NCBI RefSeq assembly: GCF_001017435.1 | Contig: NZ_CP011371.1 | Location: 5,766,001 to 5,830,000 of the forward strand | DNA: 64,000 bases | Source of the DNA: Caldimonas brevitalea | GTDB taxonomy: Bacteria > Pseudomonadota > Gammaproteobacteria > Burkholderiales > Burkholderiaceae_C | Reading direction: 5' to 3' | Shown: positions 48,486-64,000 of the stretch, piece after piece | Position numbering within the stretch: position 1 is the first letter of the stretch | Layout of the letters: each line of letters starts with the position of its first letter | Notes under the pieces: generated by a model | Databases searched by the model: none | Told to the model about the DNA's origin: nothing | Seen by the model: only the letters and a program-made list of their open reading frames with translations | Position numbers and translations under genes: made by a program

Positions 48486-50102
48486 ATGACTGCTCCTTTG
48501 GCCCACCTCACCGCTTCATCGCTGTCACGCGATGGCACTGCCAGCGCGGGCGTCGGTGCGCTGGCATTGATGCACCGGTGGCCGGCCCTCCTCCTCTGCG
48601 CGGCCATCGCCGGCGCTGTGTCCCCTTTCGGCTGGGCCCCGGTGTCCTGCTGGCCCGTTGCGCTGCTGGGCTATGGCGTGCTGTTCAGCCTGCTGCCGCA
48701 CTCGCGATCACCCTGCCATGCCTTCGCGGTCGGACTCGCGTTCGGCCTCGGGCTGCACCTGTCGGGCCACGGTTGGGTCTACACGTCGTTGCACGACAAG
48801 ACGGGTATGTCGGTGGGGTGGGCGGTGCTCGGCAGCGCCATCTTCATTGGCTATCTGGCGATCTTCACCGCCGTGCCGTGCGCCGTATGGCGCTGGGGGG
48901 TGGGGCATCGCCGGCGCTACACGCCGAGCGGCCAGGCCGCAGCTCGCATCGTCGCTTTCAGTGTTTGCATCGCCCTCGGCGAGTACGCCCGCAGCCTGCC
49001 GTTCGGCGGCTTCACCTCCCTCTCGCTCGGCCATGCGATGGTCGACACATGGCTGGCGCCCGTCGCACCGGTGCTCGGCGTGTACGGCTTGAGCACGCTG
49101 GCGCTGGCCGCATCCGCGGCCGCGGTCACCGCCGCGACGGGCCGGGCCCCGATGCACGTGCGACTCACCTGTCTCGCCGCGACGGCGGTGCTGCTGGCCG
49201 GCGGCAGGCTACTTGAACCGGTCGAGTGGGTGCGCCCCCTCGGCGCGCCGTTGAGCTTTCGGCTGATTCAGGGCAACGTCTCCCAGGAGCGCAAGTTCGA
49301 CCCGCAGCACGTGCGCGCGGAAGTGGAGGCCTATTTGCAGGATGTGATGGAGGCCCCGGCCGACATCGTGGCAACGCCCGAGACGGCCTTCCCCCTGTTC
49401 TTGAACGAACTGCCGGCCGACACCTTGTCCCGGCTGCAAGACCACGCCCGCGCCACCGGCAGCCATGTGTTCCTGGGGGTGGCCACCCTGGGGCCCGACG
49501 GCGAGGGCCGCAACAGCGTGGTGCAGGTGACACCGCATGGCGAGCTGTCACGCTACGACAAGGTGAGGTTGATGCCCTTCGGCGAGTACAGCCCGATCGG
49601 CCTCGGCTGGTTTGCCGGGCGGATGCAGATTGCGCTGAAGGACCTGCAGCCGGGGGCGGCCGACCAACCGACGCTGCAGGTGCGGGGGCAGCGATTGGGC
49701 GTGCTGATTTGCCATGAAGATCTGTTCGGCGAGGACACGCGCCGGTGGGTGAGGCGTAAAGGCGACGACGGGGTGACCGTGTTGCTCAACGTGAGCAACC
49801 TCGCCTGGTTCGATGGCAGCGACGCGATCGATCAGCGACTTCAAATCGTGCGGCTGCACGCGTTGGCGCTGGCTCGGCCCGTGTTGCGGGTGGCGAACAC
49901 CGGGGTGACGGTCTTGGTCGATGCGCGGGGGCGGGTGGGAACGGCGTTGCCGACGGGCGTACACGGGATTTTGAGCGGTCAGGTGCAAGGTGTGCAGGGG
50001 CTGACGCCGTATGCCCGCTATGGGGAGTGGCCCTTTCTGGCGCTCAGCGTCAGCGCGCTCGGCCTCGCCGCGCTGCTTGCCATGCGCACGGCGAGACATT
50101 GA
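48486..50102 (+). CDS. lnt: Apolipoprotein N-acyltransferase
   Basis: 538-aa inner-membrane enzyme that adds the third acyl chain to lipoproteins. N-terminal membrane part of about six helices up to about residue 245 (LLLCAAIAGAVSPFGWAPVSCWPVALLGYGVLF, then more). The nitrilase domain holds the catalytic triad Glu299 (ATPETAFP), Lys359 (SRYDKVRLMPFGEY) and Cys409 (GVLICHEDLFG), all present. The motif GEYSPIG is typical. No rest-of-operon partner is visible, and the gene may be a second lnt copy rather than the housekeeping one. Confidence 0.9.
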   Translation: MTAPLAHLTASSLSRDGTASAGVGALALMHRWPALLLCAAIAGAVSPFGWAPVSCWPVALLGYGVLFSLLPHSRSPCHAFAVGLAFGLGLHLSGHGWVYTSLHDKTGMSVGWAVLGSAIFIGYLAIFTAVPCAVWRWGVGHRRRYTPSGQAAARIVAFSVCIALGEYARSLPFGGFTSLSLGHAMVDTWLAPVAPVLGVYGLSTLALAASAAAVTAATGRAPMHVRLTCLAATAVLLAGGRLLEPVEWVRPLGAPLSFRLIQGNVSQERKFDPQHVRAEVEAYLQDVMEAPADIVATPETAFPLFLNELPADTLSRLQDHARATGSHVFLGVATLGPDGEGRNSVVQVTPHGELSRYDKVRLMPFGEYSPIGLGWFAGRMQIALKDLQPGAADQPTLQVRGQRLGVLICHEDLFGEDTRRWVRRKGDDGVTVLLNVSNLAWFDGSDAIDQRLQIVRLHALALARPVLRVANTGVTVLVDARGRVGTALPTGVHGILSGQVQGVQGLTPYARYGEWPFLALSVSALGLAALLAMRTARH

Positions 50103-50574
50103 CGGGCTGTCTTCACCACAGCAAGACAAACTACAGCGATGACAGGCAGTATCGACATTCGATGATCGTCAAAACAACTTACCGGTGGCGCATAAACGTT
50201 TGCGAACGTGGCGACAACATTCTGAATTCGCTCATCAATTCCTCCCGGTTGGTTGCAATTCTAAAAACTCAAAGATGCGCAGCATCCTTGATCGCCGCCT
50301 ATTTGTTTAGGAGCGATGCAGGGAACAAAAGCTTGCCTGCGAGGTGTCAAATCTACAGGCTCCGTTCGTTGGCAACCAGTTCCGCAAGGTCTTCGGCAAA
50401 TACAAACAGCTCACCTCTGGCACCGCGCCTGTTGTGAAATGGCTTTGATCCCTCACCAGCAGCAGGTCCCTGACAAAATAACGCGTTCGTCGGCGCACGA
50501 TTTCCAGCGTCAGAACCGTGAGCGGCATCAACAACCTGCCTTCCGTACTGATGGGGACAGCCGCAATGCAGCGA
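50103..50574. other. AT-rich region without a supported gene
   Basis: 472 bp after lnt with markedly lower GC than the flanking chromosome. Only short frames with no start or ribosome site. A 45-codon plus-strand frame ending at 50448 has protein-like composition but lacks a start, so it could be a decayed fragment. Marks the left edge of the atypical patch. Confidence 0.5.
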
Positions 50575-50991
50575 CTAGCGAGGCGGCCTTACGACAACAA
50601 ACCAGAAGACGCAACTTGCAACAGACCCACATAACATTGAGAAGCCCGCGCCAGCGCTTGCATCCAAAAGCATCGTCAAGACTCCCTGTGGACTGCTCTT
50701 CCAGTTCAGCACCACGCTAGGGCCAAAAATTATCGCGAAAGGGGTCAGTCCCATCGCCGCCCCGAGCGACGAATAAACCCACAATTTCGACTGTTCCTTC
50801 CATCGCAACAAAAAATAGAGTGGTAGGCCCATGATTGCTGCCGAAAGGTAACCGTATGCCGCGAGCACGCTCGCTACCCATTCAGCTTGCGAATGCGGAA
50901 TTATAAACATCGAGACGACGTAGATAATCAGTGCCGGCACCGCTGGCCCGATGAGGAACCCGGCGACGGTTCCGAACGCTTTAGTACTCAT
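50575..50991 (-). CDS. Four-helix membrane protein in AT-rich patch, unknown
   Basis: 138-aa integral membrane protein from the ATG at 50991 (MSTKAFGTVAGFLIGPAVPALIIYVVSMF). Helices: about 8-29, 40-61 (VASVLAAYGYLSAAIMGLPLYFLL), 71-92 (LWVYSSLGAAMGLTPFAIIFG) and 110-134 (SMLCGSVASCVFWFVVV). It has a lower GC and unlike codon use compared with the flanking genes. Its place behind an immunity-type gene suggests an orphan immunity protein or a transferred gene, but no homology supports a function. Confidence 0.6.
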   Translation of the reverse strand: MSTKAFGTVAGFLIGPAVPALIIYVVSMFIIPHSQAEWVASVLAAYGYLSAAIMGLPLYFLLRWKEQSKLWVYSSLGAAMGLTPFAIIFGPSVVLNWKSSPQGVLTMLLDASAGAGFSMLCGSVASCVFWFVVVRPPR

Positions 50992-51320
50992 ACTCGTCTC
51001 GATTGAACGTTTGGACTTAATACCTATTTCAATCTGGTCACGACTCTTTGCAAGACCGGTTGGATAGGATATGGGGCAATAGCTCCCTGATAATATATGC
51101 CTCACGACGCAGCATGGCTTCGACCCTTAGCAAACCTAAACTTTTGGAGGGGGACGCGTATCAGGTGACGGTCTTACACCCAAAGCGATCGGTTAACCAA
51201 AGAATCGCTTATGGCCTGCGACATTTAAACTTAATGGCGAAGCCGAACATCAATAAGCCAAAATTGCAATCGCAACCATGTCACAAGCAAGTCCGACAAC
51301 GCGACGCCCTATTCGAGCGC
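50992..51320. other. AT-rich spacer
   Basis: 329 bp between the membrane-protein and immunity-like genes. No frame on either strand has a start, ribosome site and coding-like composition. May be remains of displaced toxin or immunity modules. Confidence 0.4.
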
Positions 51321-51821
51321 TCAGTCGTATTCAAAAAACCGGTCCCACCACGTAAACGTTGCCCCCTGCGTCATTTTCTCGACCGGAAGAAAGCCGTCAT
51401 AAACGGCTCCCCTTAGCACGTCCCCATCCACCCAGAGGAAGCCATGCCGGTTTAGAACATCCCTTATTTCCGCCAACACCTTTCCTTCATATGCCGCCTC
51501 CCCCTCGACGATCGAGGTCGTAGCACAATGGCTAGCCAATTGACCCCAGCTAGAAAATCGGATTGCGAGAAACGGAGCGTCCTTTGATTCACCGTCGCCG
51601 CGCACCTCTCGGATTTCGCCCCAGAAAAATGCATCCTGATAATTGTCGACCAGACATAGTTTCATGTCCAACTTTGATTCCAACTCCACAACACATTGTT
51701 GAGCACGCCTCACTGCGTCGCGGAAGTCAAAATTTTCAGGACTGTCCCCACTCAACCACCCGTCGGAATTCCTCCCCTGCAAGTCGAGCGCCTTAAGTCG
51801 GAGATGAAGCGCATTTTCCAT
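51321..51821 (-). CDS. Probable immunity protein for the Rhs toxin
   Basis: 166-aa acidic cytoplasmic-type protein without signal or membrane helix. Trp/Phe-rich and acidic, with e.g. DNYQDAFFWGEIREVRG, FLAIRFSSWGQLASH and WDRFFEYD at the end. It starts 13 bp after the Rhs stop on the same strand, exactly where immunity genes sit behind polymorphic toxins. GC is low like the toxin tip and unlike the Rhs core. No known immunity family recognised. Assignment is by position and composition. Confidence 0.7.
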   Translation of the reverse strand: MENALHLRLKALDLQGRNSDGWLSGDSPENFDFRDAVRRAQQCVVELESKLDMKLCLVDNYQDAFFWGEIREVRGDGESKDAPFLAIRFSSWGQLASHCATTSIVEGEAAYEGKVLAEIRDVLNRHGFLWVDGDVLRGAVYDGFLPVEKMTQGATFTWWDRFFEYD

Positions 51822-51834
51822 CCAGACACCTTCC

Positions 51835-54800
51835 TCAATTTATAATATCCGTCGACACCGGCACATAAGGGTAAGCCGAAATAACCTCAGGCGGATTAGT
51901 TCCCCGCTTTGTAATAATTCTGATATGAGTCTCGCCTTCGGCGCCAATAGTGCCCACTTTTATCACAAAGGTCCCTTGGTCGCTTTGGGACACAGGTCTC
52001 CGATTGGGCCCACTCTTTTTCCATGCCTCATCAAGCACCTCCAGCAATTTGTCGGGACTAACCACGAATACCGAATGCGACTTTCCCGCTCGATCTCGCG
52101 CCGGGTCCAAGGTCAAGTGATGGCCGATATGCTCGATGCGATTCGCTCCATTTTTATCTGTCCCCTTATATCTTAGACCTTCCAAGCTCACCCAGTCGTT
52201 TGGACCTCGCTGGGTGAGCCGACCGTTTTTCACCGCCTCATCCACCATGCCGCGAGCGACCTGGGGAATGCTCGTGGGATGTAGCACAAGACGACTCGGC
52301 GCCGGCGGCGGACTCCCCGGCGGCGGAGGATTGGTCAATTTGCCTTTGCCCCCGCCGAACACAGAGTCGATCGCGTCGCTGCCGCTCTTCCCTTTCTTGC
52401 CCACCGCGTCGATCAGGATGTTCGTCGTCGCCAGCAAGGTCTCGCCCGCCTTCTCGAGATCGCTTTCGCACTGCGCCCCGTTGATCTGATCAACCAGACT
52501 GAGCAGCCCCTTGACGAAGTCGATCCCAGCGTTGCCGAGACTCCAGTACGCCATTCCCACGAGCGCAATGTCGGCGAGGAAACCGGCGCCCAAGGCATGC
52601 GAGGCTCCCCACAGCGCGAAGATCGCAACCGTCCCGGCGATGTTTGTCGGGCTCACCAATTCCTTGAGCTGATGTCCGATCTCCGCCGGCAGGCCCTTGG
52701 CCGCGTACAGGAACACCTCCCTCAGCTTGTCGCCGAAACCCATCGAAGGCACGTCGAGGGCCGGCGCCAAGCCCAACGGGTCAAGGTGACGGTGGGGCTG
52801 GCCCAATGCGAACTCATACAGATCGGGCCCTGCCGCCAAGCCCAAGGGGTCGGGGCTCAGATACCGGCCCTGCTGCGGGTCCAGATAGCGGTGCGTGTTG
52901 TAGTGCAGCCCCGTCTCGGCATCGAAGTACTGGTTCGACCCACGCAACGGCATCTCAAGGCGCGACCCTGTAGCAACGACGGCAGCACCCGTATCCGTTA
53001 GCGTTGCCTGCCAAGCAACCTGCCTTGTCGAGTCTGTCACCGCCAGCGGAGCCAGCCGATGGTCGGTATGGATCGCTAGGATCGCCCGGCCAGACAGCAT
53101 CGCCACCGGCCGCCCGTCCAGGTACACGTACTGGCGCACGATGCGACCGGCTTCATCGGCCTCGGCGGTGAGTTGTGCCCCGTCGTAGAAGAAGCGCGTC
53201 ACCTTCTGGCCCTGCGCGCTGTAAACCACCTTCGCGATGCGTTCCCCGAAGACGTTGTAGCGATAGCGCGCGACGAGTCGTTCGGCCTGCCCGTCGCGGG
53301 CCTTGGCGAATACCTCCATCAAACGGTCTAGCCCGTCCCACACATATCTGTGCCGCGCGTCCTCCACGACCCGGCCGCGGGCGTCGTGTCTCGTCTCGCC
53401 AAGCTCTCTTGGCTCGGTGGCCTCTGCCGCCGCCCGTGCAAACAATGGCGGCGGCGCCTCAGTACCCAAGTGACCCAGCCGGAACGCCCACCGCTGCCGC
53501 CATGGCAATGAAGCTTGCGACGCAGCTGCACGGCCAGGCACGGCGGCATAACGGTAGTCCACCCGCACCTGCTCGTCCTGCCACTGCAATTGGCTGGCAG
53601 CCGCCGCCTCGCTGCCCACCTGCACGGGCCTGCCGTCTACGTCCAGCAGGCGCCTGTGCGTCAAGCCGTTGCCATGGACGAAGCCCCGATCGTGAAACCG
53701 CTCCTCCACAGTGTTGAGGCCGGTGACAATCGGAGCGTTCACCAAGCCCTCGCGGTCAATGCCGGCTAATACGCCCGGCTTCGCGTGCTCGGGGCCGTTG
53801 TAGCGATAGGCCAGACGCTGCCCGTCTGGCAGCACCTTGCGTTGCAAACGGCCGAACCCATCGAATTCATAACGTGTGGTGAAGCGGCGGCCGTCGATCA
53901 AGCGGGTGTGGGCAGTCAGCCGCGCCTCTGCGTCGTAGTCGTAGCGCTCTTCCCCCGCCTCGTAGGCGATGCGCGCCGGCTTGTTCGCGCGGCCCCATTC
54001 GATCTTCGCGTCCTCGCCGTCGGCCTGAACCCGAATGCCGCGGCCCAGCGCGTCTCGCCCAATGCGAGTCACACCGCCGTCGGACGCCACGCGCTGCACC
54101 AACTGGTCGGCTTCGTCATGGTGGTACACCGTGCGCCCGCTGACGGGGCTGTCGTCAAGCACCAGTCGACCGAAGTCGTCGAACAAATCGGTGTTCAGGC
54201 GCGCCTGACTGTCGAGCTGTGTGCGGACAGCCTGAGGTGCCGACTCGGGCCCGCCCAATGTCTTGATCTCGCGTCCATCAGGCATAGAAAGGCGCAAGGC
54301 CAAACGCGGCAGTGCCACCTGCAAGGCAGCATCCACTGCCGCAAGGGTCTCGGCCTGGCGTCGCTGGCTCACGCTGCCGTCCGGATTCAGCAGCTGCAAC
54401 TCGCGCAGGCTGTCGTCCGCCGCATAGTGCCAAGCAATGCGGTTGCCCTGTCCGTCACTCAGTTCACTCAGCTGCCCGGACGCGTCGTACTGCAGGCGCA
54501 GGTGTTGGCCTAGCGCGTCGCGCGCTTCGGCCACCTGGCCCTTCACATCGTAGGCCAGCTGCAACTGGCGTCCCGCCCGCTGCACGCCTGTCAGGCGTCC
54601 TCGGCTGTCATAAGTCAGGCGTTCAGTCACGCCGTCCAGACCGGCGCGCTCGATCAGCCGCCCCGCGTCGTCATAACCAAAGCTCGCCTGCAGCCCCATC
54701 GGATAAGTGATGCCGACGATGCGACCACCCGTCGGGTCATACCGATACCGTGTGACGTCGGAATCCGCAGGGCTACCCGTGCGGCCGTTGGGCAAAGGAC

Positions 54801-56574
54801 CGTCCACCTCGCTCAGCAAGCTGCGACCGTTGACCAACTGGTAGCGATAGCCCGTCGTGCGGCTCATCGGCACCCCCGCCGGCACCACCCGCCCCTGCCC
54901 ATCCACCGGGCTGTAGCCCCGCTCGACCACCTGTGTGACCTGCCCGTGCTCGTTGTACGCCAGCCGGGTGACCTGCTCCTGGCCCGCCACCACGCTCGGC
55001 CGAGCCACCACCACCGGCTGCCGCCCCTCACCCTCGTATTCGTAGCGCACCAACACCCGCGCCGGCTGCGCCCGGCCGTCGACGTGCTCGACCTGCTCCA
55101 CCCGCACCGTCCGCCCCTGCGCATCCAGCACCGCACGTTGGCTCTGCTGCGGCACACCGTCGGTCGACAACCCGGTCACCGACACCAACCGCCCGCTGCG
55201 TTCATACCCGTACCGCACGTTGGCCGGCCCGCAGCTGTCGCACCCCGCCCCGCGCGATTCGAGCAGCCGGAACTCCCCGCCGATCACCGCCGTTTTGTAG
55301 AACGTGCGCCGCCCCTGCCCGTCAATGAGCACGGTCTGCCCGGGCTGGCCGCCCGGGCTGGGCAGTTCCTGAAACGCCAGCTCCACACGCTCGGCGCCCG
55401 GCTGCCCCACGGCGCCGCGCACGCTCAGCACCGCACGGCCGCGCTCGTCGTAGCCGTAGGTGGCGAGGCGCTGGTTCAGCAGCCGCCCGTCGCCGCCGGT
55501 GCCGACCACGCTGATGCCGGTCAGCAGCGTCGGAAAGCGGCCGTCCTCGTAGTGGTACACGCGGCTGATCGCGCTGCTGCTGACGCCGCGGTCGGTGTAT
55601 GCATGCACCGGGGTGCTTGGGTCGTGCGAGGTCGGCTGCCCCACCTTAACCAGGTTGGCCCAAACGCTGGACGCCGGCGCGCTGCTCTCCTTGGGCAAGG
55701 CGCTGCCATATTCGTAGGTGTAGCGCCCCACCGGCGTGTCGATGCTCTGCACCCCCCGGAAACGGTCGCCGGCCTTGGCAGCCTGCCGGTCCAGATAGTT
55801 CAGCCGCAGGCTGCGGCCCTGCGGGTCGGTGACCTTCAGCAAGTGCCCGCCGGCGTCGTGCTGCAAGGTCACGAACTCACCGGTGGGCGCCAAGATCTGC
55901 GTCAGCCGGCCTTGCGCGTTGAAACTCAGCTGGCGCCCGTCGGCCCACACCCAGGTGTACTGCTCACCGTCGCGGCCCGTGTGGATCAGCACCCGGCCCT
56001 GCGCCGGGTCGGCGTGGCTGCACTGGCTGGGATGGCGCGGGTCGCGGTTGAAGATCAACCGCCCGCCGTCGGCCTGCGTGATCTGCACGGTGTTGCGGCC
56101 GACCGCGTGCAGCTCGGTTTCGTAGCTCAGCCGCCAGCCCCGACCGAGGATGCCGTTTGGCGCGTTCGTGCTCGAGGCGCTGCTGTTGTAGTGGCGCACC
56201 AGCTCCAGCCCCAGCACGCCGGGCAGTGCGGGCAGGTCCACCTCGCGCTGGTATTTGTTGCCGTTGACGACGTTCAGCGGGTTGCCGGCACCCACGTTGG
56301 TGCCCGAGGCGTTGCCCAGGCTCGCCGGGCCTGCCCCGCCGCAGGGAGGCCCCGGATTGGTGGGACCACACGAGGCACCGCCCCCTGCGCCCGGATCACC
56401 GGGCACGCCGGGGATCGAGGCGTTCTGGGCGGCTGCCGGTGGGGCGAGTCCGGCCAGGCACAGCCCGACCAGGAGAACAGCCTTCACGCACCGCCGCAAG
56501 ATGCGGCCATCGCCGCGCGTCCGAAGCGCCTCGCCTGCAGTGGCATCGACAACTCCCGGATCTGGTGTCTGCAT
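51835..56574 (-). CDS. Rhs/YD-repeat protein with C-terminal toxin tip
   Basis: 1579-aa polymorphic toxin. An N-terminal Sec signal peptide (AVLLVGLCLAGLAPPAAAQ) is followed by a DUF6531-like segment (NPLNVVNGNKYQREVDLPALPG). A long run of YD/RHS repeats (RYGYERSGRLVSVTG, YRYDPTGGRIVGI, FGYDDAGRLIERAGLDG, LAYDVKGQVAEARDALG and others) forms the encapsulating cage. The conserved core end is HYNTHRYLDPQQGRYLSPDPLGL and DPLGLAPA. About 307 variable residues follow: a hydrophobic stretch, then a Pro-rich hinge and the terminal ~150-residue domain (IEHIGHHLTL ... HIRIITKRGTNPPEVISAYPY), which looks like an RNase of the BECR type (inferred). Three starts compete; 56574 has GAGGGA at best spacing. 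15 bp behind the TadE-like gene. Confidence 0.92.
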   Translation of the reverse strand: MQTPDPGVVDATAGEALRTRGDGRILRRCVKAVLLVGLCLAGLAPPAAAQNASIPGVPGDPGAGGGASCGPTNPGPPCGGAGPASLGNASGTNVGAGNPLNVVNGNKYQREVDLPALPGVLGLELVRHYNSSASSTNAPNGILGRGWRLSYETELHAVGRNTVQITQADGGRLIFNRDPRHPSQCSHADPAQGRVLIHTGRDGEQYTWVWADGRQLSFNAQGRLTQILAPTGEFVTLQHDAGGHLLKVTDPQGRSLRLNYLDRQAAKAGDRFRGVQSIDTPVGRYTYEYGSALPKESSAPASSVWANLVKVGQPTSHDPSTPVHAYTDRGVSSSAISRVYHYEDGRFPTLLTGISVVGTGGDGRLLNQRLATYGYDERGRAVLSVRGAVGQPGAERVELAFQELPSPGGQPGQTVLIDGQGRRTFYKTAVIGGEFRLLESRGAGCDSCGPANVRYGYERSGRLVSVTGLSTDGVPQQSQRAVLDAQGRTVRVEQVEHVDGRAQPARVLVRYEYEGEGRQPVVVARPSVVAGQEQVTRLAYNEHGQVTQVVERGYSPVDGQGRVVPAGVPMSRTTGYRYQLVNGRSLLSEVDGPLPNGRTGSPADSDVTRYRYDPTGGRIVGITYPMGLQASFGYDDAGRLIERAGLDGVTERLTYDSRGRLTGVQRAGRQLQLAYDVKGQVAEARDALGQHLRLQYDASGQLSELSDGQGNRIAWHYAADDSLRELQLLNPDGSVSQRRQAETLAAVDAALQVALPRLALRLSMPDGREIKTLGGPESAPQAVRTQLDSQARLNTDLFDDFGRLVLDDSPVSGRTVYHHDEADQLVQRVASDGGVTRIGRDALGRGIRVQADGEDAKIEWGRANKPARIAYEAGEERYDYDAEARLTAHTRLIDGRRFTTRYEFDGFGRLQRKVLPDGQRLAYRYNGPEHAKPGVLAGIDREGLVNAPIVTGLNTVEERFHDRGFVHGNGLTHRRLLDVDGRPVQVGSEAAAASQLQWQDEQVRVDYRYAAVPGRAAASQASLPWRQRWAFRLGHLGTEAPPPLFARAAAEATEPRELGETRHDARGRVVEDARHRYVWDGLDRLMEVFAKARDGQAERLVARYRYNVFGERIAKVVYSAQGQKVTRFFYDGAQLTAEADEAGRIVRQYVYLDGRPVAMLSGRAILAIHTDHRLAPLAVTDSTRQVAWQATLTDTGAAVVATGSRLEMPLRGSNQYFDAETGLHYNTHRYLDPQQGRYLSPDPLGLAAGPDLYEFALGQPHRHLDPLGLAPALDVPSMGFGDKLREVFLYAAKGLPAEIGHQLKELVSPTNIAGTVAIFALWGASHALGAGFLADIALVGMAYWSLGNAGIDFVKGLLSLVDQINGAQCESDLEKAGETLLATTNILIDAVGKKGKSGSDAIDSVFGGGKGKLTNPPPPGSPPPAPSRLVLHPTSIPQVARGMVDEAVKNGRLTQRGPNDWVSLEGLRYKGTDKNGANRIEHIGHHLTLDPARDRAGKSHSVFVVSPDKLLEVLDEAWKKSGPNRRPVSQSDQGTFVIKVGTIGAEGETHIRIITKRGTNPPEVISAYPYVPVSTDIIN

Positions 56575-56589
56575 CATCACTCCCTCGTG

Positions 56590-57987
56590 TCATATCTGGC
56601 CATCGGGCGGCACGCAGCAGTAAGACGTGCCGCAGCCAGGGTCGCAGCTCGGGTCGCCCATCTCGCAGCCGGGCGGGCGGCAGCCGTTGGGGTCGGTGGC
56701 TGGGTCGCAGGTGCCGCCATCGCCGCCACCCGGTGGCTCGATCGGAACGGGGGGCACGCTGCAACCGATGGTCTGGCATTCGGGTGGCGGCGTGTCCACG
56801 CGGGGCGGGTCGCCAGGGTCGCTGGGGCTGCCGTCGTTGCCCGGGCCCGGGTGGGACTCGACCGGGCCTTCGATCGGGTCGGACTGCATTTGCAGCGTCA
56901 CATGGCTGACGATGGGCACCCTGCCGGCATTCACGAGGCGGGTGTAGGCGGCATCGTTGCCCGTATCCATCCACTGCAGGTAGCGGGTGTAGACCATGCC
57001 CACCAGCGGCACCGAGGGCCGGTAGCCGTGCGTGATCTTGAGCTTGATCAGGTTCGCGTCGTGCACGCTCTGGCCCGAAGCGGTACCGACCGCTTCGGGG
57101 TCGCGCGCCGCGAGCCCGGCATGGCGGATGGCCCTGGCGCCATAGGCGTTCTCGAGCTGCGCGTCGTTCCAGTCGTCATAGCTCTCCCGAGTGGGATTGA
57201 GCAGGCGCACCTCGACGAACTCGGCCACCTCGGCCGCCGCCCGGGTCAGCGATTCGGCCAATTCACTGGAGCTGCGGCCGCCGCCGTACAAGGCCAAGAC
57301 GTTGCGCGCATAGGCGAGGCGGATGGCGTCCACGTTGGCGTGGCCGGTGCTGCCCGCCCGAGCCGCCATGAAGGTTGCGTAGTTGATCTGGTTCTTGGCG
57401 AAGAACAGCAAGCCGTACTGCACGACAGCCAGGCCCAGCAGTGTCAGCAAGGGCCCGACCACCGCAAATTCGACCATTGCGGCGCCACGCTGCCGTCGCG
57501 GCCGCGTGGGCGCAGCGGCGTGCCCACCCGGGCGCGGTGGGCCGCCTTCGCCGTCGTGCGGGGCGAAGTACCCATGCGCGAACGCGTCGCCCGGCCGGAT
57601 GCCGAGAGCCGCCACGGTGCCGGCCGCAAGTTCGAGGCAGTGGCGAGCGAGTGCGGCCGGCGCAGCGCCGTGATGCGGCCCACGCACGCGGCACACATTG
57701 GCGCGCCAGGGCTTCAGGGCCGGCACACAGGCGACGACCCGGCCTGCCGCATCGAGGTACACCAGATCGAGGGCGTAGCGCATGAAGCAGGTGTGCACGC
57801 TGGCGCACCGGGGGATCAGCAGGCCCGCGTCCGGTCGGAGGGGTGGTGACAGCATCAGCCCACGCCAGCGGCTCCAGAAGCGGACGGCCACCCGCACGCG
57901 AAGCTGCCAGGCGCCGGTCGCCGTGTAGATGACGGCAAACTCGGCACGCTCGGCCGCGTGGTCCGTCCTTGCTGCTAGTCGTGCCAT
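56590..57987 (-). CDS. Fused DUF192 and TadE-like pseudopilin protein
   Basis: 465 aa in two parts. Residues 1 to about 155 match DUF192: RGLMLSPPLRPDAGLLIPRCASVHTCFMRYALDLVYLDAAGRVV ... LELAAGTVAALGIRPGD. From about 170, a TadE segment starts with RQRGAAMVEFAVVGPLLTLLGLAVVQYGLLFFAKNQINYATFMAARAGS, the basic leader plus E at +5 and hydrophobic helix of Tad minor pilins. A periplasmic C-terminal part ends in a Pro/Gly/Cys-rich tail with many Cys (CQTIGCSVPP, DPSCDPGCGTSYCC). Start at 57987 has GAGGG 4 nt upstream. DUF192 and TadE are usually separate genes, so the fusion is unusual. It directly precedes the Rhs gene. Confidence 0.85.
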   Translation of the reverse strand: MARLAARTDHAAERAEFAVIYTATGAWQLRVRVAVRFWSRWRGLMLSPPLRPDAGLLIPRCASVHTCFMRYALDLVYLDAAGRVVACVPALKPWRANVCRVRGPHHGAAPAALARHCLELAAGTVAALGIRPGDAFAHGYFAPHDGEGGPPRPGGHAAAPTRPRRQRGAAMVEFAVVGPLLTLLGLAVVQYGLLFFAKNQINYATFMAARAGSTGHANVDAIRLAYARNVLALYGGGRSSSELAESLTRAAAEVAEFVEVRLLNPTRESYDDWNDAQLENAYGARAIRHAGLAARDPEAVGTASGQSVHDANLIKLKITHGYRPSVPLVGMVYTRYLQWMDTGNDAAYTRLVNAGRVPIVSHVTLQMQSDPIEGPVESHPGPGNDGSPSDPGDPPRVDTPPPECQTIGCSVPPVPIEPPGGGDGGTCDPATDPNGCRPPGCEMGDPSCDPGCGTSYCCVPPDGQI

Positions 57988-58132
57988 CGATCCCTCGCCT
58001 GCGTTGTGTTGTGGTTGCAAGCGCCTCCCTGGAGCGCAACGCCACCATGGGGTGGCCGCTGGCGGTTGTCTATCCGTCTTTCACCGGCACCCTCCCGTAC
58101 AAGAAACGACCACGCTGCATCGCCGCGCTCCT

Positions 58133-59074
58133 TCAAAAGCCCGATTCGAGGAACTTGATGACGATCGGAAAGAACAGCACGATGAACGTGCAGGGAAAGA
58201 TGAAGGCGATCAACGGGAACAGCATCTTCACGGGGGCTTCCATTGCCAGCTTCTCGGCCCGCAGAAAGCGCTCGGTGCGGCGTTGGTCGGCCTGTGCCCG
58301 CAGCACCGGGCCGAGGTTCATGCCCATGCTTTCGGCCTGGATCACGGCGACGATGAAGTTCGTCACCGGTGGCTCGTTCAACCGCTCGGACATCGCCCGC
58401 AGCGAGTCGACGCGCGCCTTGCCGGCGCGGATGTCGCGCAGCACCCGCTGGAATTCGTCGCGCAGCACACCCTTGGGGCCCTTGGCCACCGCCTGGTTCA
58501 TCGCGCCTTGCAGGTTGAGCCCGGCCTCGATGCACAGCGTGACGATGTCAAGATAGAACGGAAAGGCCTTCAGCATCTCGCGCCGTCGCAAGGCCATGCG
58601 ATCGCGCAGCCAGAGCGCGGGATACCCCCAGCCGAAGACGAGGCCGACGGCCACGGCCTGCAGGTAGGCACGGGCGCTGAAACCTTGCGGGAAGAGCCGG
58701 TTCGACGGTGTGTCGAACGAGGCGAGCGCGGCGCAAAGCACGGCCGCCATCACCACCGCGCAAACCACACGCGCCGAGACGAGCTGGGCCGGGCTGATGC
58801 TGTAGTCCAGCCCGGCCTTGCGCAGCTTCGTCAACAGCTGCATCTGCGTCTTTTGAGACAACGCAGCGTCGAGGTAGTGGCTGCCCCACTGGATCGGCCA
58901 CCAGGCCAGGCGGAAGCCGATGGGCGGCGCGTCCTTGAACTCGCGGTCTTCCCGCGGCACCGTGACCACCGCGCGGCTGACCGCCCAGGCCAGCAGCGCG
59001 ACTGAAGCGCCCATCAACATCATGAACAAGGCGGCCATCACCGCGCCGCTACTGGTGAGTTGATCCAGGAACAT
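58133..59074 (-). CDS. tadC: Tad inner-membrane protein TadC
   Basis: 313-aa type II secretion F-domain protein. N-terminal helix (about 10-33), a second hydrophobic region near 100-150, then the F domain (FPFYLDIVTLCIEAGLNLQGAMNQAV ... SLRAMSERLNEPPVTNFIVAVIQAESMGMNLGPVLRAQADQRR) and a C-terminal helix pair (MLFPLIAFIFPCTFIVLFFPIVIKFL). Forms the platform with TadB for pilin assembly. 34 bp after tadB. Confidence 0.92.
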   Translation of the reverse strand: MFLDQLTSSGAVMAALFMMLMGASVALLAWAVSRAVVTVPREDREFKDAPPIGFRLAWWPIQWGSHYLDAALSQKTQMQLLTKLRKAGLDYSISPAQLVSARVVCAVVMAAVLCAALASFDTPSNRLFPQGFSARAYLQAVAVGLVFGWGYPALWLRDRMALRRREMLKAFPFYLDIVTLCIEAGLNLQGAMNQAVAKGPKGVLRDEFQRVLRDIRAGKARVDSLRAMSERLNEPPVTNFIVAVIQAESMGMNLGPVLRAQADQRRTERFLRAEKLAMEAPVKMLFPLIAFIFPCTFIVLFFPIVIKFLESGF

Positions 59075-59108: not shown

Positions 59109-59972
59109 TTACACGTCGATCGCGATGATCTTGCGAATCACCCACACACCCATGAACTCGAAGAAGGCGATCACCGACAACGCCGCCCAGCCCATCGGTG
59201 TGCTCCACATCAGTGCCATGGCCTCGGGCTCCATCTTGTTCAACACGACCATCAGGCCCACCGGCAGCATGCCCACCACCCACGCCTGCAGCTTGCCCTG
59301 CGAGGTGAGCGCGCGGATCTTGCCCTCCATCTGCAGCCGGCTGCGGATGGTGTGCGCGGTGCGCTCGAGGGTTTCGGCCAGGCCCCCACCGGTCTCGGAC
59401 GCGATGCGCATCGCCGACACCACCAGGGTGGTGGTCTGGGTCGGCACACGCCGGGACAAGTTGCTCAGGCTTTGTTCGAGCGTGACGCCCAGGCGCTGTT
59501 CGCGCAGCACCAGGGCGAATTCCTGGCTGATGGGGGGCTGAGCTTCGGTCACCATCTGGCGCAAGGCGGAGTTGAGGCCAACGCCGGCGCGCATCCCGCC
59601 GGCCAGCATCATCAGGGCGTCGGGCAGCTGCTCTTCGAAGCTGCGCAATCGCCGGCGGCGCATCCACGCATAGACGATGCGCGGCAGGAACCCGAGCGCG
59701 AAGAACACCGGCACGGCCACCAGCGCGGCGCCAGTGGCCAGCCAAACCAGCACGGCGCCAAGCGCCATCACCGCCAGGTTGGCGATGAACAGCTTGCGCG
59801 CGTCGATGAACAGGAAAAACTCCTGCATCTGAAACTTGGTGCGCTCGGTGAAACTCGCACGGTAGCGGGCCAGGGTGGTAGTGCCCAGATCGATCACAAA
59901 CCACGTGAGCAGTGCCACCGAGACGGCCGACACGCCGGTGACCAGGGTCAGAACTGCATTGTTGTCGAGCAT
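59109..59972 (-). CDS. tadB: Tad inner-membrane protein TadB
   Basis: 287-aa F-domain platform protein. Helices around 8-28 and 60-95, then the conserved cytoplasmic F domain (FEEQLPDALMMLAGGMRAGVGLNSALRQMVTEAQPPISQEFALVLREQRLGVTLEQSLSNLSRRV ... ASETGGGLAETLERTAHTIRSR) and two C-terminal helices. ATG at 59972 chosen; the frame runs upstream to 60017 over the tadA end. 41 bp after tadA. Confidence 0.92.
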   Translation of the reverse strand: MLDNNAVLTLVTGVSAVSVALLTWFVIDLGTTTLARYRASFTERTKFQMQEFFLFIDARKLFIANLAVMALGAVLVWLATGAALVAVPVFFALGFLPRIVYAWMRRRRLRSFEEQLPDALMMLAGGMRAGVGLNSALRQMVTEAQPPISQEFALVLREQRLGVTLEQSLSNLSRRVPTQTTTLVVSAMRIASETGGGLAETLERTAHTIRSRLQMEGKIRALTSQGKLQAWVVGMLPVGLMVVLNKMEPEAMALMWSTPMGWAALSVIAFFEFMGVWVIRKIIAIDV

Positions 59973-60013
59973 GTCAGGCCTTTTCGTTGGGGCGTACCGT
60001 CGGGTGCGCCGTT

Positions 60014-61855
60014 TCACAGGGCTTGCTCGGGCAGCTCGTCCACGGCCGCCATGCCGTGCATTGCGGTGGCCTTGAAGATCGAGACGTCGAGTTGGACCCC
60101 CGCAGCACGCAATTCGTCATAGAAGCTCGGCACCGTGTCGCAACCGGTGAAATAGCCCTGCACCCGGCCGCCCGCCTGAAGCCCACCCCGGCCGTAGCCG
60201 CGGTTGACGAAGCGGAACAGCTCCTGCACCTGAATCTTCCCGCTCTCCATGCCGGTGATCTCGACGACATGCGTCACCATGCGGGTGCCGCAGGCGAATC
60301 GGGTTTGCTGCACGATGATGTCGACGGCGGATGCGATCTGCTCGCGTATCGCGCCGAGCGGCAGCTCCATCCCTGCCATCAGAACCATGGTCTCCAGCCG
60401 AGCCAGCGCATCGCGGGGGGCGTTGGCGTGCAAGGTGGTCAGCGATCCTTCGTGGCCGGTGTTCATCGCCTGCAGCATGTCGAGCGCCTCGGCGCCTCGG
60501 CATTCACCGACCACGATACGGTCGGGCCGCATGCGCAGCGTGTTGCGCACCAGCTCGCGTATGGTCACCGCCCCCTTGCCTTCGACATTCTCAGGGCGGG
60601 CTTCGAGGCTGATCAGGTGTTCGTGGTGTAGCTTCAGCTCGGCGGCGTCTTCGACCGTGATGACACGCTCGCCGGGCGGGATGAAGTTGGACAGGATGTT
60701 GAGCAGCGTGGTCTTGCCGGAGCCGGTGCCGCCCGAGACAACGATGTTCTTCCGGGCTTCGACACACAGGTGCAAAAACGCGGCCATCGGCGGGCTGATG
60801 GAGCCGAAGGCGATCAAGTCCTGCGCTTGCAGCTTGCGCTTGGAGAACTTCCGGATCGTCAGCGTCGGGCCTTTCAGGGCCAGCGGCGGGATGATGGCGT
60901 TGACGCGCGAACCATCCTTCAGCCGCGCGTCGACCATCGGCGACGACTCGTCGATGCGGCGCCCGAGCGGTGCGACGATACGCTCGATGACGCCCATCAC
61001 GGCACGGTCGCCGGTGAAGGTCAGCGGGTGGCGGTGCAGCCGCCCCGACCGCTCGACGTAGATCTCGTCATACCGGTTGACCATGATTTCGGTGACGCCG
61101 TCGTCTTCCAGCAGCTCTTCCAGCGGGCCGAGGGCGATGGCTTCGTTGAGCACCTGCCGGCACAGCAGCTCGCGGTCGAGTTCGGCCGGCACCTCGTCGT
61201 CGCGGTCTTGCAGCAGCTCGCGTATCAGCGTTTCGGTTTCGCGGCGCAGGCGGTCGTCGCTCATGCGCGAGACGTCCTGGCGGCGCAGGTCCATGGTTTC
61301 CAGCAACTGGACATGCAGACGCTTGCGCCATTCGAACTCGAGCTGCTTGCGCCTGGCGTCTTGCGGCGTCACGAGCGAGACGGCCGGTCGCTCGGCGATG
61401 GCAACAGGTCCAGACAGGGTCTGCGGCAGGGGTGAGAGGGGCGCCGGCGGCGTCGTTTGGCGCACCAGATCTTCTCGGCGGTGGGGCGGCTGGCGCGACG
61501 CCAAGTCCACCGGCGTCGTGTCGGCGAACGAACTCTCGACCGCGGGATCAACCGGCCCTGCCTCGCCGCAGTTCAGCACCTGCAGCCGGTAGGGTCCGAT
61601 GCCGATCACGTCTTCCGGCAGTAGCGGACCATGTTGCAACTCGATGCGCTGCCCGTTGACGCTCACCCCGCCGAAGGCGCCCATGTCTTCAACCAGCACC
61701 CCGCCGGGCGTGCGAAACAAGCGGGCGTGCTCCTTCCCGATGCGCCAGCTTTCCAGGCGGACCTCGTTCTGCGCCCCTTTGCCGACGACACACTGGTCGG
61801 CCACCGTCACCTGTCGGCTTTGGCCCTGCGCGTCGAGGATCATGATCTGCAGCAT
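60014..61855 (-). CDS. tadA: FHA-domain Tad secretion ATPase (TadA/CpaF)
   Basis: 613-aa hexameric secretion ATPase powering pilus assembly. Residues 1 to about 95 form an FHA phosphothreonine-binding domain (GKGAQNEVRLESWRIGKEHARLFRTPGGVLVEDMGAFGGVSVNGQRI). A Pro-rich linker precedes the CpaF part with the Walker A GGTGSGKTTLL at about 375-385, Walker B-like RIVVGECRGAEALDML and a His box HEGSLTTLHANAPRDAL. Start at 61855 has AGGAGG 4 nt upstream. The FHA fusion is not in the standard TadA and may replace the separate regulator TadZ. 14 bp behind the secretin gene. Confidence 0.93.
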   Translation of the reverse strand: MLQIMILDAQGQSRQVTVADQCVVGKGAQNEVRLESWRIGKEHARLFRTPGGVLVEDMGAFGGVSVNGQRIELQHGPLLPEDVIGIGPYRLQVLNCGEAGPVDPAVESSFADTTPVDLASRQPPHRREDLVRQTTPPAPLSPLPQTLSGPVAIAERPAVSLVTPQDARRKQLEFEWRKRLHVQLLETMDLRRQDVSRMSDDRLRRETETLIRELLQDRDDEVPAELDRELLCRQVLNEAIALGPLEELLEDDGVTEIMVNRYDEIYVERSGRLHRHPLTFTGDRAVMGVIERIVAPLGRRIDESSPMVDARLKDGSRVNAIIPPLALKGPTLTIRKFSKRKLQAQDLIAFGSISPPMAAFLHLCVEARKNIVVSGGTGSGKTTLLNILSNFIPPGERVITVEDAAELKLHHEHLISLEARPENVEGKGAVTIRELVRNTLRMRPDRIVVGECRGAEALDMLQAMNTGHEGSLTTLHANAPRDALARLETMVLMAGMELPLGAIREQIASAVDIIVQQTRFACGTRMVTHVVEITGMESGKIQVQELFRFVNRGYGRGGLQAGGRVQGYFTGCDTVPSFYDELRAAGVQLDVSIFKATAMHGMAAVDELPEQAL

Positions 61856-61869
61856 TGCGCCTCCTGGCT

Positions 61870-64000
61870 TCAGCGTTGGCCTTCGAGAGGGGAGTTCAAG
61901 GTCGGCGGCTCCAGCCATTGCGCAGGCACCCAGCCGCGCTTCTGCTCGCCCCCGTCCCCCAGCTGCACCGCCACCCAGTGCCCGCGCGGGGGCTGAGGCA
62001 GCAAGCCAATGACATCGCCCGCACTCAAATGGACGACCACGTGGGCATTGATGTCCGGCGCAACGCGCAAGGCCAGTCGCTCCAGCGTGACGCGGTACCG
62101 GCTGGCAGCCGGCACGTCACGGGGGGCGGGTGGCAGCGACTCCGGAGCTGACGCACGGCCCGACGGCAGCGCCGCGAGCCGCCCGGCCTGGTCCTGGCGG
62201 GCAGCGCCGCCAGGAGCGGCTGCGATCGTCAGGCTGCCCCTGGCAGGGCGCACGGCAGTGCTCGGTACCCAGCCGCTCACCGAGCCCACCAGCACGTGAC
62301 GCCAGACCGCCGTGCCATCGGCATGAGGCAAGGCGCCGCCCATCAGCACGGTCGACCCGATCCCCAGCTGCAGCAGCGCCGGCGCGCGGGAATGCGGTTC
62401 GGCCCGCAAGGCCATGGCGTCGACCACGACGCGCAAGGCACTTCCGCCCGGCAGGGGTGCAGCACTGGCAGCAGCGGGCGGCCGGGCGACGGGTGCGTCG
62501 GCAGGCGTGGGCGCAGTCGCAGGCTGGACGGGCGCGGAGAAAGACACCGGAAGACGGCCAGCGGCGGGTGCGTCCACGCCCGCCGTGGCGGGCGGTTGCG
62601 CCACCGCCGGTGCCGGAGTGGTGTTCGGCTGTTGATACTGCGCCCCGGGCTGCAGCGGCTCGGTCAGATGAGGCGGGGGGCCCATGCGCTCTTCGAGTCG
62701 ATCGCTCACGCGCTGCACCCGGTCCTGCAGGCCCGCCGACTGCGCGCTGACCACCGTGGGCGTGACGAAGACGACCAGTTCCGTCTCGCGGTTCTGGAAG
62801 CGCTTGGACCTGAACAGCGGCCCCAGGATCGGCAGATCGCCGAGCAAGGGCACCTTGTCGACGTCGCTGCCCGTGTCGCGCTGCAACAGACCGGCCAGCA
62901 CGATAGTCTCGCCGTCGCGCACATTGAACTCGGTGTTCGCCTTGCGCGAGAGCAAGGCGGGTCCGCTGGCGGTGCTCACCGACTGGTCGATCGAGCTGAC
63001 TTCGGTGTTGATCTGCGCGCGGATCACCCCCCTGTGGTCGACACGTGGCTCGATGTCGAGCTTGACGCCGTATTCCTTGAACTGGACCCGCGGGCCGTTG
63101 ATCGTGTAGACGGTGTAGGGGATCTCGCCGCCGGCCAGGAAATTGGCTCGGGCGCCGTTGCGCGCGGACAGCTGCGGCTCGGCCAGCACCGCCGCCTTGC
63201 CCTCTTGCGCCAGCAGGTTCAGCTGCGCGTTCAGGCCCATGTTGATCGCGCTCAGCACGTTGAGGCCGCTGGGCAGCACCACACCGCCACCACTGCCGTC
63301 GGGGTTGGTGATCGGCGGGGCATTGCCCTCGCCGGTGTGGATGTCGATCTGGTAGGGGCCGCTGTGACCACGCCGCCCCGGCGCCCAGATGCCGCCCACC
63401 GCAGCGCCGCCGGTGGCGTTCCATTTCAGGCCGATCTCGCGTAAGACCGTACTCGGGAACTCCACCACCTTCACGTCCATCAGCACCATCTGTTCCCAGC
63501 CGAGCCGGTTGGTGAAGTTGACGATCTGTGGGTAGCGCTTGGCGAGTTCCTCGATCTTGCGCAGGTCGTTGTCGGACAGGTCGTCGCCCTCGACAATGAT
63601 GTTGGCCCCGACCACCGACGCCTTGGCATTCGGGATGGCGGTGAGGAAGGCCGCGATCTCGCGGGCGAAGCGGCTGGTGTCGCCCGGCACGATGTTCACC
63701 TTGACGCGCTGGTAGCGGCCGTCGACGTTCCAGACGAACAGCGATGAAGTGCCCGGGCCATTGGCGAACAGGATCACTTCCTTTTGGTCGAGCGCGGCAG
63801 CCGTCAGGATCGATCCGTTGCCGACCGCGATGCGCGCGACCCCGGGTGCCGGGAACACGCGCGACTCGCCGACGAACATCTCGATCTCGGGAACCTGCCC
63901 TTCGTCATCGGGCGCGCGGATGGGGGTGTAGGGCCGGGCGTCGGTACTGGCACCTGTGCGCCTGGCCAGAGCGCTGTGTGGTTTGAGATGCTCCGCGAAA
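61870..64000 (-). CDS. rcpA: Tad secretin RcpA/CpaC, with C-terminal SH3-like domains (5' end outside window)
   Basis: Outer-membrane secretin; the frame is open to position 64000, so the N terminus lies beyond the window. Visible part: pilus-motif/BON-like region (RVFPAPGVARIAVGNGSILTAAALDQKEVILFANGPGTSSLFVWNVDG), the secretin pore domain (MVLMDVKVVEFPSTVLREIGLKWN ... LNLLAQEGKAAVLAEPQLSARNGARANFLAGGEIPYTV ... VSSIDQSV) and the exit motif NTEFNVRDGETIVLAGLLQRD. After a long Pro/Ala-rich linker there are two SH3_3-like domains (about the last 170 residues; ALRVVVDAMALRAEPHSRAPALLQLG and RYRVTLERLALRVAPDINAHVVVHLSAGDVIGLL). Such tails are not usual in Tad secretins. The missing upstream part should hold the signal peptide. 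Confidence 0.88.
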   Translation of the reverse strand, partial: FAEHLKPHSALARRTGASTDARPYTPIRAPDDEGQVPEIEMFVGESRVFPAPGVARIAVGNGSILTAAALDQKEVILFANGPGTSSLFVWNVDGRYQRVKVNIVPGDTSRFAREIAAFLTAIPNAKASVVGANIIVEGDDLSDNDLRKIEELAKRYPQIVNFTNRLGWEQMVLMDVKVVEFPSTVLREIGLKWNATGGAAVGGIWAPGRRGHSGPYQIDIHTGEGNAPPITNPDGSGGGVVLPSGLNVLSAINMGLNAQLNLLAQEGKAAVLAEPQLSARNGARANFLAGGEIPYTVYTINGPRVQFKEYGVKLDIEPRVDHRGVIRAQINTEVSSIDQSVSTASGPALLSRKANTEFNVRDGETIVLAGLLQRDTGSDVDKVPLLGDLPILGPLFRSKRFQNRETELVVFVTPTVVSAQSAGLQDRVQRVSDRLEERMGPPPHLTEPLQPGAQYQQPNTTPAPAVAQPPATAGVDAPAAGRLPVSFSAPVQPATAPTPADAPVARPPAAASAAPLPGGSALRVVVDAMALRAEPHSRAPALLQLGIGSTVLMGGALPHADGTAVWRHVLVGSVSGWVPSTAVRPARGSLTIAAAPGGAARQDQAGRLAALPSGRASAPESLPPAPRDVPAASRYRVTLERLALRVAPDINAHVVVHLSAGDVIGLLPQPPRGHWVAVQLGDGGEQKRGWVPAQWLEPPTLNSPLEGQR

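Follow-up and report, generated by a model that had tools for sequence, protein, structure and literature searches.

Organisation of the locus

The stretch of Caldimonas brevitalea DNA analysed here, referred to as the window (64,000 nucleotides, positions 5766001-5830000 of a 6.48-Mb single-contig genome, G000 C1), carries on its minus strand the end of a tight adherence (Tad) pilus operon, in which genes for a secretin, an FHA-TadA ATPase, TadB, TadC and a DUF192-TadE fusion are followed by a gene for an Rhs protein and then by an open reading frame (ORF) of 166 aa (Table 1). The connection between this Rhs gene and the pilus operon preceding it is the subject of the present analysis.

Secretin, TadA, TadB, TadC and TadE were assigned with Pfam, and CpaB and a Flp-like pilin by eye and through relatives. 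The latter two belong to the upstream part of the operon, beyond the window end, where CpaB-like, Flp-like, TadG-like and second TadE-like genes were recognised by eye and through similarity between relatives rather than by Pfam. The C-terminus of the secretin (61870-63879, minus strand) gave weak Pfam matches to SH3_2 and SH3_3. Genome-wide, the T2SSF genes comprise one one-domain pair of the TadB/TadC type, which is that of this operon, and three two-domain genes of the GspF/PilC type.

The initial annotation had placed the Rhs gene 15 bp behind a TadE-like gene on the same strand, a position which is confirmed and which fits the ATG start at 56574. Two further starts are available behind the TadE stop (TGA, 56592-56590), namely GTG 56580 and ATG 56577, giving gaps of 9, 12 or 15 nt in order of position, with GAGGGAG directly upstream of the starts and inside the gap. 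A pattern scan found neither a terminator nor a promoter pattern in the gap; in the region, the scan gave 8 terminator-like sites, with 5.6 expected.

Table 1. Features of the Tad-Rhs locus, with window coordinates and the evidence for each assignment.
Feature	Position	Strand	Evidence and remarks
Tad secretin, CpaC/RcpA type, SH3-like C-terminus	61870-63879	minus	Pfam Secretin 9e-44, T2SS-T3SS_pil_N 1e-13
TadA ATPase, FHA domain N-terminal	60014-61918	minus	Pfam T2SSE 3.5e-63, FHA 4.7e-8
TadB, inner-membrane platform	59109-60017	minus	Pfam T2SSF 1.5e-19
TadC, inner-membrane platform	58133-59074	minus	Pfam T2SSF 4.6e-18
DUF192-TadE fusion gene	56590-58020	minus	Pfam DUF192 4e-17, TadE 4e-12; start TTG 58020 or ATG 57987
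DUF192-TadE: DUF192	~57583-57900	minus	
DUF192-TadE: pilin domain	~56882-57510	minus	
DUF192-TadE: Cys/Pro/Gly-rich tail	~56593-56881	minus	
Rhs protein, 1581 aa	51835-56580	minus	Pfam RHS_repeat 3e-31, DUF6531 6e-20; Rhs_assc_core 1.8e-16
Rhs: signal-peptide-like segment	~56425-56580	minus	
Rhs: DUF6531	56050-56286	minus	
Rhs: RHS repeats and core	down to 52768	minus	
Rhs: hydrophobic pre-toxin region	52309-52767	minus	common to Rhs L052_18 and L077_11, whose C-termini differ
Rhs: putative C-terminal toxin domain, 157 aa, no assigned type	51838-52308	minus	GC 0.537; relative in Noviherbaspirillum aridicola
Candidate immunity gene, 166 aa	51321-51821	minus	13 nt after Rhs stop; GC 0.525; no signal peptide by eye

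Recurrence of the TadE-Rhs arrangement

In the family, Rhs proteins of this type (E <= 1e-12) were found in 7 of 250 genomes, five of which (G000, G013, G027, G115 and G238) carry the gene directly behind TadE. In G239 a distance of 3.4 kb, occupied by other toxin-like genes, separates TadE from the Rhs gene downstream, and G067 has the Rhs gene on a different contig; in G219, outside these seven, the contig ends within an Rhs-like start behind TadE. Seven N-termini served as queries for a scan of named species genomes, in which the best 80 of 126 relatives, ranked by likeness to the window, corresponded to 77 loci. After setting aside 11 loci whose sequence stops within 1.5 kb upstream, TadE was detected directly upstream of Rhs in 41 of the 66 testable loci with hidden Markov models made for this work, L103 and L136 being counted as adjacent by eye owing to overlong ORF starts.

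The 41 adjacent loci, many of them from metagenome-assembled genomes (MAGs), derive from 40 genomes (L118 and L127 belong to one MAG) and span 17 named genera, with nine loci lacking a named genus. Culturable isolates such as Duganella levis (L096), Aquabacterium soli (L068) and Pseudoduganella aquatica (L080) also show the arrangement. Burkholderiales account for 25, Rhodocyclales for seven, Nitrosomonadales for six and Nevskiales for one, and two are unassigned. The distance between TadE and Rhs ranges from -126 to +19 nt in 38 of the 39 cases measured, the remaining value (-318) reflecting an overlong ORF start. Where at least 6 kb of upstream sequence was available (n = 32), tadA was present in 29 loci, tadB in 30 and tadC in 30. 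Second or third Rhs genes in tandem occur in L066, L073, L074/L114, L079, L080, L089, L099 and L098/L109.

Recurrence in other genera is far beyond chance. The search for further Tad operons ending in Rhs genes that the initial annotation had proposed was run here and found many of them in other genera, and this recurrence supports assigning the Rhs gene to the Tad operon, with which that annotation had considered it probably co-transcribed. Its alternative, a chance insertion of the Rhs gene downstream of the operon, is refuted by the same recurrence and retains a negligible probability: the low GC content of the toxin tip and the candidate immunity gene does indicate exchange of that part, but the GC content of the Rhs core equals that of the operon, and the same gene order is kept across the named genera.

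The Rhs protein, its variable C-terminus and candidate immunity

RHS repeats, DUF6531 and the RHS-associated core were identified in the Rhs protein with Pfam and NCBIfam, neither of which detected a PAAR domain, and by eye its first ~52 residues resemble a signal peptide in which the n-region is long. The earlier view that a signal peptide stands in place of PAAR holds to this extent; so does the claim that VgrG is missing, none having been found among the neighbouring proteins scanned, with the whole window not searched for it. An Rhs effector of a type VI secretion system (T6SS) was ruled out on the grounds that this Rhs has no PAAR, that its scanned neighbours include no VgrG, and that the T6SS-type Rhs genes of the genome are located elsewhere (among the other Rhs loci inspected, L226, L228, L229, L230 and L233, behind VgrG-like ORFs or with PAAR-like N-termini by eye). 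Another Rhs of the same genome, L232, has a signal-peptide-like start and no Tad genes. A two-partner toxin of contact-dependent growth inhibition (CDI) was likewise rejected, as neither a filamentous haemagglutinin N-terminus nor CdiB occurs in the eight proteins scanned, Rhs included.

Across relatives, the two ends of the protein behave differently. For the 54 of 68 Rhs sharing one motif, the N-terminal 500-aa part matched in all 1431 of 1431 pairs, against 333 of 1431 for the last 150 aa, which fell into 13 clusters, the largest of 27 members. Pfam assignments on 67 C-terminal stretches included 33 Tle1-like phospholipases, 10 DUF6765, three VWA7_N, two VanY and one Het-C. The Rhs subfamily consists of a conserved N-terminal half and an exchangeable C-terminal region of predicted toxin function. 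Of 73 Rhs ORFs whose N-terminus is intact, a set that includes genes seen in two overlapping loci, 72 have a signal-peptide-like hydrophobic stretch, and 30 carry before the Rhs core a Cys-pair stretch resembling the tail of TadE.

In the window, the Rhs core has a GC content of 0.66-0.71, against 0.537 for the toxin end and 0.525 for the candidate immunity gene, a drop taken as the mark of an exchanged tip. For the toxin and for the 166-aa ORF one relative each was found, and the two are neighbours in Noviherbaspirillum aridicola (43% and 40%, respectively, a single pair), where the homologue of the ORF (L070_89) lies directly behind the homologous toxin; toxin relatives were sought in the fetched loci and by a database search of 7990 candidates, and relatives of the ORF in the fetched loci. 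Among those 7990 candidates, the C-terminal 297 aa gave one relative besides itself, and the isolated toxin domain gave no homologue among 29 candidates.

Candidate immunity ORFs follow 51 of 67 other Rhs genes by a simple rule. Simple rules were also applied to their localisation: behind lipase-type Rhs (n = 25), 16 are lipoprotein-like, three have a signal peptide or are membrane proteins and six scored as cytoplasmic, three of which (in L089, L101 and L120) show a lipobox by eye; behind other Rhs (n = 26), 17 have a signal peptide or membrane segment, one is lipoprotein-like and eight scored as cytoplasmic. Periplasmic candidate immunity proteins are expected for membrane- or wall-acting cargo because an antibacterial role predicts them.

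These data bear on the proposal that the Rhs protein serves the pilus structurally, as an adhesin at its tip, and is no toxin. The place of the gene behind a minor pilin gene would suit such a role, and YD-repeat proteins can be surface proteins. The hypervariable C-termini with enzyme domains (lipase, peptidase), the paired candidate immunity genes and the joint occurrence of toxin and immunity homologues in L070 speak against it, and we regard it as improbable.

Around the toxin cassette, a GC content of ~0.52 extends over positions 50000-52300, which include the end of the toxin, the candidate immunity gene and an ORF of 176 aa (50575-51105) that resembles a membrane protein and has no Pfam match; this segment is likely a recombination hot spot. 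The cassette is adjoined by a second lnt gene for apolipoprotein N-acyltransferase (48486-50102, plus strand), a better-scoring lnt being present elsewhere in the genome. Relatives of the window lnt (E <= 1e-10) occurred among the loci only in L078, L091 and, distantly, L060, and it was therefore dismissed as a constant partner.

The TadE minor pilin and its tail

The AlphaFold model of the window TadE (mean predicted local distance difference test score, pLDDT, 81.6) comprises a first helix of 46 residues, a confident globular domain and a low-confidence tail. A Foldseek search returned no PDB match at E <= 0.001, so that Pfam and the length of the N-terminal helix are the basis for calling it a pilin. 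The DUF192 domain (57583-57900, minus strand), fused here before the pilin, is encoded in many relatives by a separate gene between tadC and tadE; if prepilin peptidase cleaves before the pilin helix, it would constitute a very large leader.

The tails of toxin-linked TadE proteins are 52-223 residues long (353 for L060, a fusion) and mostly rich in Cys, Pro and Gly, and a PG-GN-G stretch was present in 38 of 54 toxin-linked proteins against 1 of 48 other TadE. Among 60 TadE from the surveys, 12 had both tail and toxin, four the tail only, one the toxin only and 43 neither (Fisher p 1.6e-8, uncorrected for kinship). In this test 13 of the 60 TadE have no tadC match upstream, and signal-peptide toxins were recognised by eye beforehand, so undetected ones may sit among the TadE scored as toxin-less. 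Three of the four tail-only proteins (L211, L218 and L224) belong to a distant clade. On a tree of 102 TadE, the toxin/none label requires 10 changes, at least eight of them on supported branches; cargo has therefore been gained and lost repeatedly.

The regions behind these TadE genes were fetched from 14 of 23 matching genomes of one survey (own genome apart), chosen mostly by score, from nearly all matches of an even draw from the order (not G421, G479 and G590) and from five more matches of a draw from the phylum (not G256 and G978). In the genome surveys, no more than 6-8 candidates (8 in the family) were scored for each genome, and absences there are not firm.

Other cargo and TadE-toxin fusions

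In some loci the position directly behind TadE is occupied by smaller proteins with signal peptides rather than by Rhs. Several of these share a short cysteine motif, which one pattern retrieved in eight ORFs (seven distinct), each beside TadE. The small cargo of L182, missed by that pattern, contains a Pesticin-type lysozyme domain (3e-31), and that of L056 a pretoxin HINT domain and a ribonuclease, with a DUF2716 protein as neighbour. Matches below the Pfam cut-off were obtained for L183 (weak GH19) and for L065 and L141 (weak PLA2G12-like), and no Pfam match for L181 and L086. Behind six Cys-rich small toxins (L051, L065, L086, L141, L181 and L183), Dsb- or thioredoxin-like proteins were noted by eye, which perhaps fold them. 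L051 and L086 each contain two TadE genes, of which one precedes the small toxin and the other Rhs, giving the impression of a separate TadE for every toxin. In L065 the small toxin is preceded by a complete TadE and the Rhs gene by a short stretch that matches TadE.

In other cases the toxin domain is part of the pilin itself. The protein L060_70 (L060/P0003) consists of TadE and ~350 further residues, and a database search found its last ~125 residues to be 52-84% identical to parts of other proteins: CdiA-type proteins named filamentous haemagglutinin, DUF637 or VENN (P0005, P0006, P0007 and P0018), the Rhs proteins P0014 and P0016, the pretoxin-TG protein P0020 and, by coverage only, the WXG100 protein P0022. 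By Pfam, P0009 combines TadE with Ntox16, and P0028 has a DUF192-TadE-OmpA architecture. Four more proteins (P0015, P0017, P0023 and P0027) align to the pilin part without its Pfam-scored first helix and end in Ntox16 as well; the end of P0024 is different. From these fusions it follows that the pilin is used as an N-terminal carrier of toxin domains otherwise found on CDI, Rhs and type VII secretion system (T7SS) carriers.

By eye, L186 encodes TadE with an OmpA-like C-terminal domain, followed by an Rhs gene spread over several frames. Further Tad operons of this type have, by eye, a lipoprotein-like repeat protein of 1352 aa (L222) or other secreted-looking proteins (L219 and L223) in the position behind TadE; these are possibly other tip cargo.

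Proposed mechanism and alternative explanations

Beyond the initial annotation, the analysis thus adds a candidate immunity gene, the DUF192-TadE fusion, wider cargo classes, TadE-toxin fusions and the TadE tail. The recurrent pairing with many different toxins suggests that the pilus machine carries or exports bacterial weapons, and from the sequence data delivery of the toxin by Tad appears likely. We consider it probable that the Rhs-immunity pair belongs together with the Tad operon in a single polymorphic-toxin system, with a cargo that would be mounted on, or exported by, the Tad machine via a dedicated TadE minor pilin. More generally, and only tentatively, TadE minor pilins may constitute a trafficking module for polymorphic toxins, the pilus tip being loaded either by fusion or through a docking tail that binds Rhs or smaller toxins.

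Under the proposed mechanism, the toxin would cross the inner membrane by Sec, and its C-terminal toxin domain would probably be encased by the Rhs repeats. In the periplasm it would be captured by the dedicated TadE-type minor pilin via the Cys/Pro/Gly-rich tail, and the resulting TadE-toxin unit assembled at the pilus tip. The Tad secretin, ATPase and pilus would push this unit through the outer membrane, and it would be shown at the tip or the cell surface. Contact with neighbouring bacteria may then release the C-terminal toxin and lead to their killing, the small downstream gene presumably protecting the producing cell and its kin. Rhs proteins, small signal-peptide toxins and toxins fused to TadE would be alternative cargoes of the same machine.

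Several observations weigh against this reading. In 25 of the 66 testable loci TadE does not precede Rhs, as is also the case for the Rhs loci of Massilia brevitalea, and the 20 genomes with these 25 loci include 5 (the isolate Delftia sp. PS-11 and four draft MAGs) in which no TadE of this type was found. The other 15 do carry one, with best matches of at least 252 bits, and in L137 and L141 it lies within the same locus as the non-adjacent Rhs. As a baseline, TadE of this type was found in 44 of 399 genomes of the order draw, reaching at least 252 bits in 6 of 399, and in 12 of 398 genomes of the phylum draw. At most seven candidates per genome were scored in these two surveys and all candidates in the 20 non-adjacent genomes; the baseline may therefore be low and the contrast overstated.

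The association between tail and toxin is not independent of ancestry, as independent pairs gave 4 versus 0 (p 0.125, with low power). Furthermore, 47 of the 60 survey TadE have no recognised toxin; L180 has a tail and no recognised toxin behind it, and L056 and L122 have a toxin and, by the rule used, no such tail. The window toxin domain itself has no Pfam match, and its AlphaFold model, built from two sequences, is poor (mean pLDDT 42); a nuclease fold for it is a guess. Finally, Tad-dependent secretion of the Rhs protein is inferred from sequence, the passage of an Rhs cage of this size through a secretin is not established, and the three GspF/PilC-type genes mean that a type II secretion system (T2SS) may exist as an exporter.

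The main rival starts from this last point: the Rhs protein would be secreted by Sec and a T2SS, or displayed like other signal-peptide Rhs, and its place in the Tad operon would reflect co-expression with an adhesive contact pilus. The non-adjacent loci, the genomes without such a TadE and the additional GspF/PilC-type genes favour it, as does the report, in the part of the article available, that the T2SS/general secretory pathway is the most prevalent route of polymorphic toxins (Zhang et al. 2012, PMC3482391). It leaves unexplained, however, the TadE-toxin fusions, which speak against it as a general account, as well as the presence of one TadE per toxin in two-module loci and the toxin-linked tail. 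We consider this explanation unlikely.

If export through the Tad machine is correct, it would represent a further dedicated interbacterial toxin route beside the type V, VI and VII systems and add to the trafficking modes of polymorphic toxins. Tad operons with their own toxin-immunity pair make direct toxin delivery by Tad pili testable in cultured environmental bacteria.

Comparison with known systems

Among the matches listed for the open-licence PubMed Central literature (title and start of abstract), no description of Tad-linked Rhs or polymorphic toxins was found, the Kil system of Myxococcus xanthus being the nearest. Two other matches, on Taylorella (PMC3250509) and on T7SS beside Tad genes in Gram-positives (PMC11217815), were judged unrelated from the portions available. 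The whole words TadE, Tad, pilus and pilin do not occur in the first 300,000 of the 354,187 characters of the catalogue of polymorphic toxins by Zhang et al. 2012 (PMC3482391).

With T6SS Rhs effectors, the window protein shares the Rhs core, the variable, putatively toxic C-terminus and an adjacent candidate immunity gene, but it differs in its signal-peptide-like N-terminus, in its setting in a Tad operon and in having neither PAAR nor, among the scanned neighbours, VgrG. The signal-peptide Rhs toxins WapA and Myxococcus Rhs4/Rhs5 are likewise secreted and large, with a polymorphic C-terminus, whereas the excerpted text of PMC10433427 gives no pilus-operon link for them. CdiA toxins are connected through the C-terminal toxin domain shared with the L060 fusion; their carrier is a filamentous haemagglutinin exported by CdiB, in contrast to the minor pilin seen here.

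The closest parallel is Kil, a Tad pilus requiring interchangeable minor-pilin tips for killing, according to the sections available of PMC12075869 and PMC8460266. Contact killing by Myxococcus requires Tad pili, with the toxin unknown there (excerpts of PMC8460266, PMC12075869 and PMC10433427), and whether the Kil tips carry toxins was left open by the authors (PMC12075869, in part); neither PMC12075869 nor PMC8460266 uses the word Rhs in its main text. Both systems combine a Tad machine with several minor-pilin modules of variable ends, contact-dependent killing being known for Kil and TadE-, TadG- and TadA/B/C-like parts being seen here. They differ in that recognisable polymorphic toxins, together with candidate immunity genes, accompany the minor pilin genes described here or are fused to them, an arrangement which, if it does deliver toxins, may indicate how Kil-like Tad machines kill.

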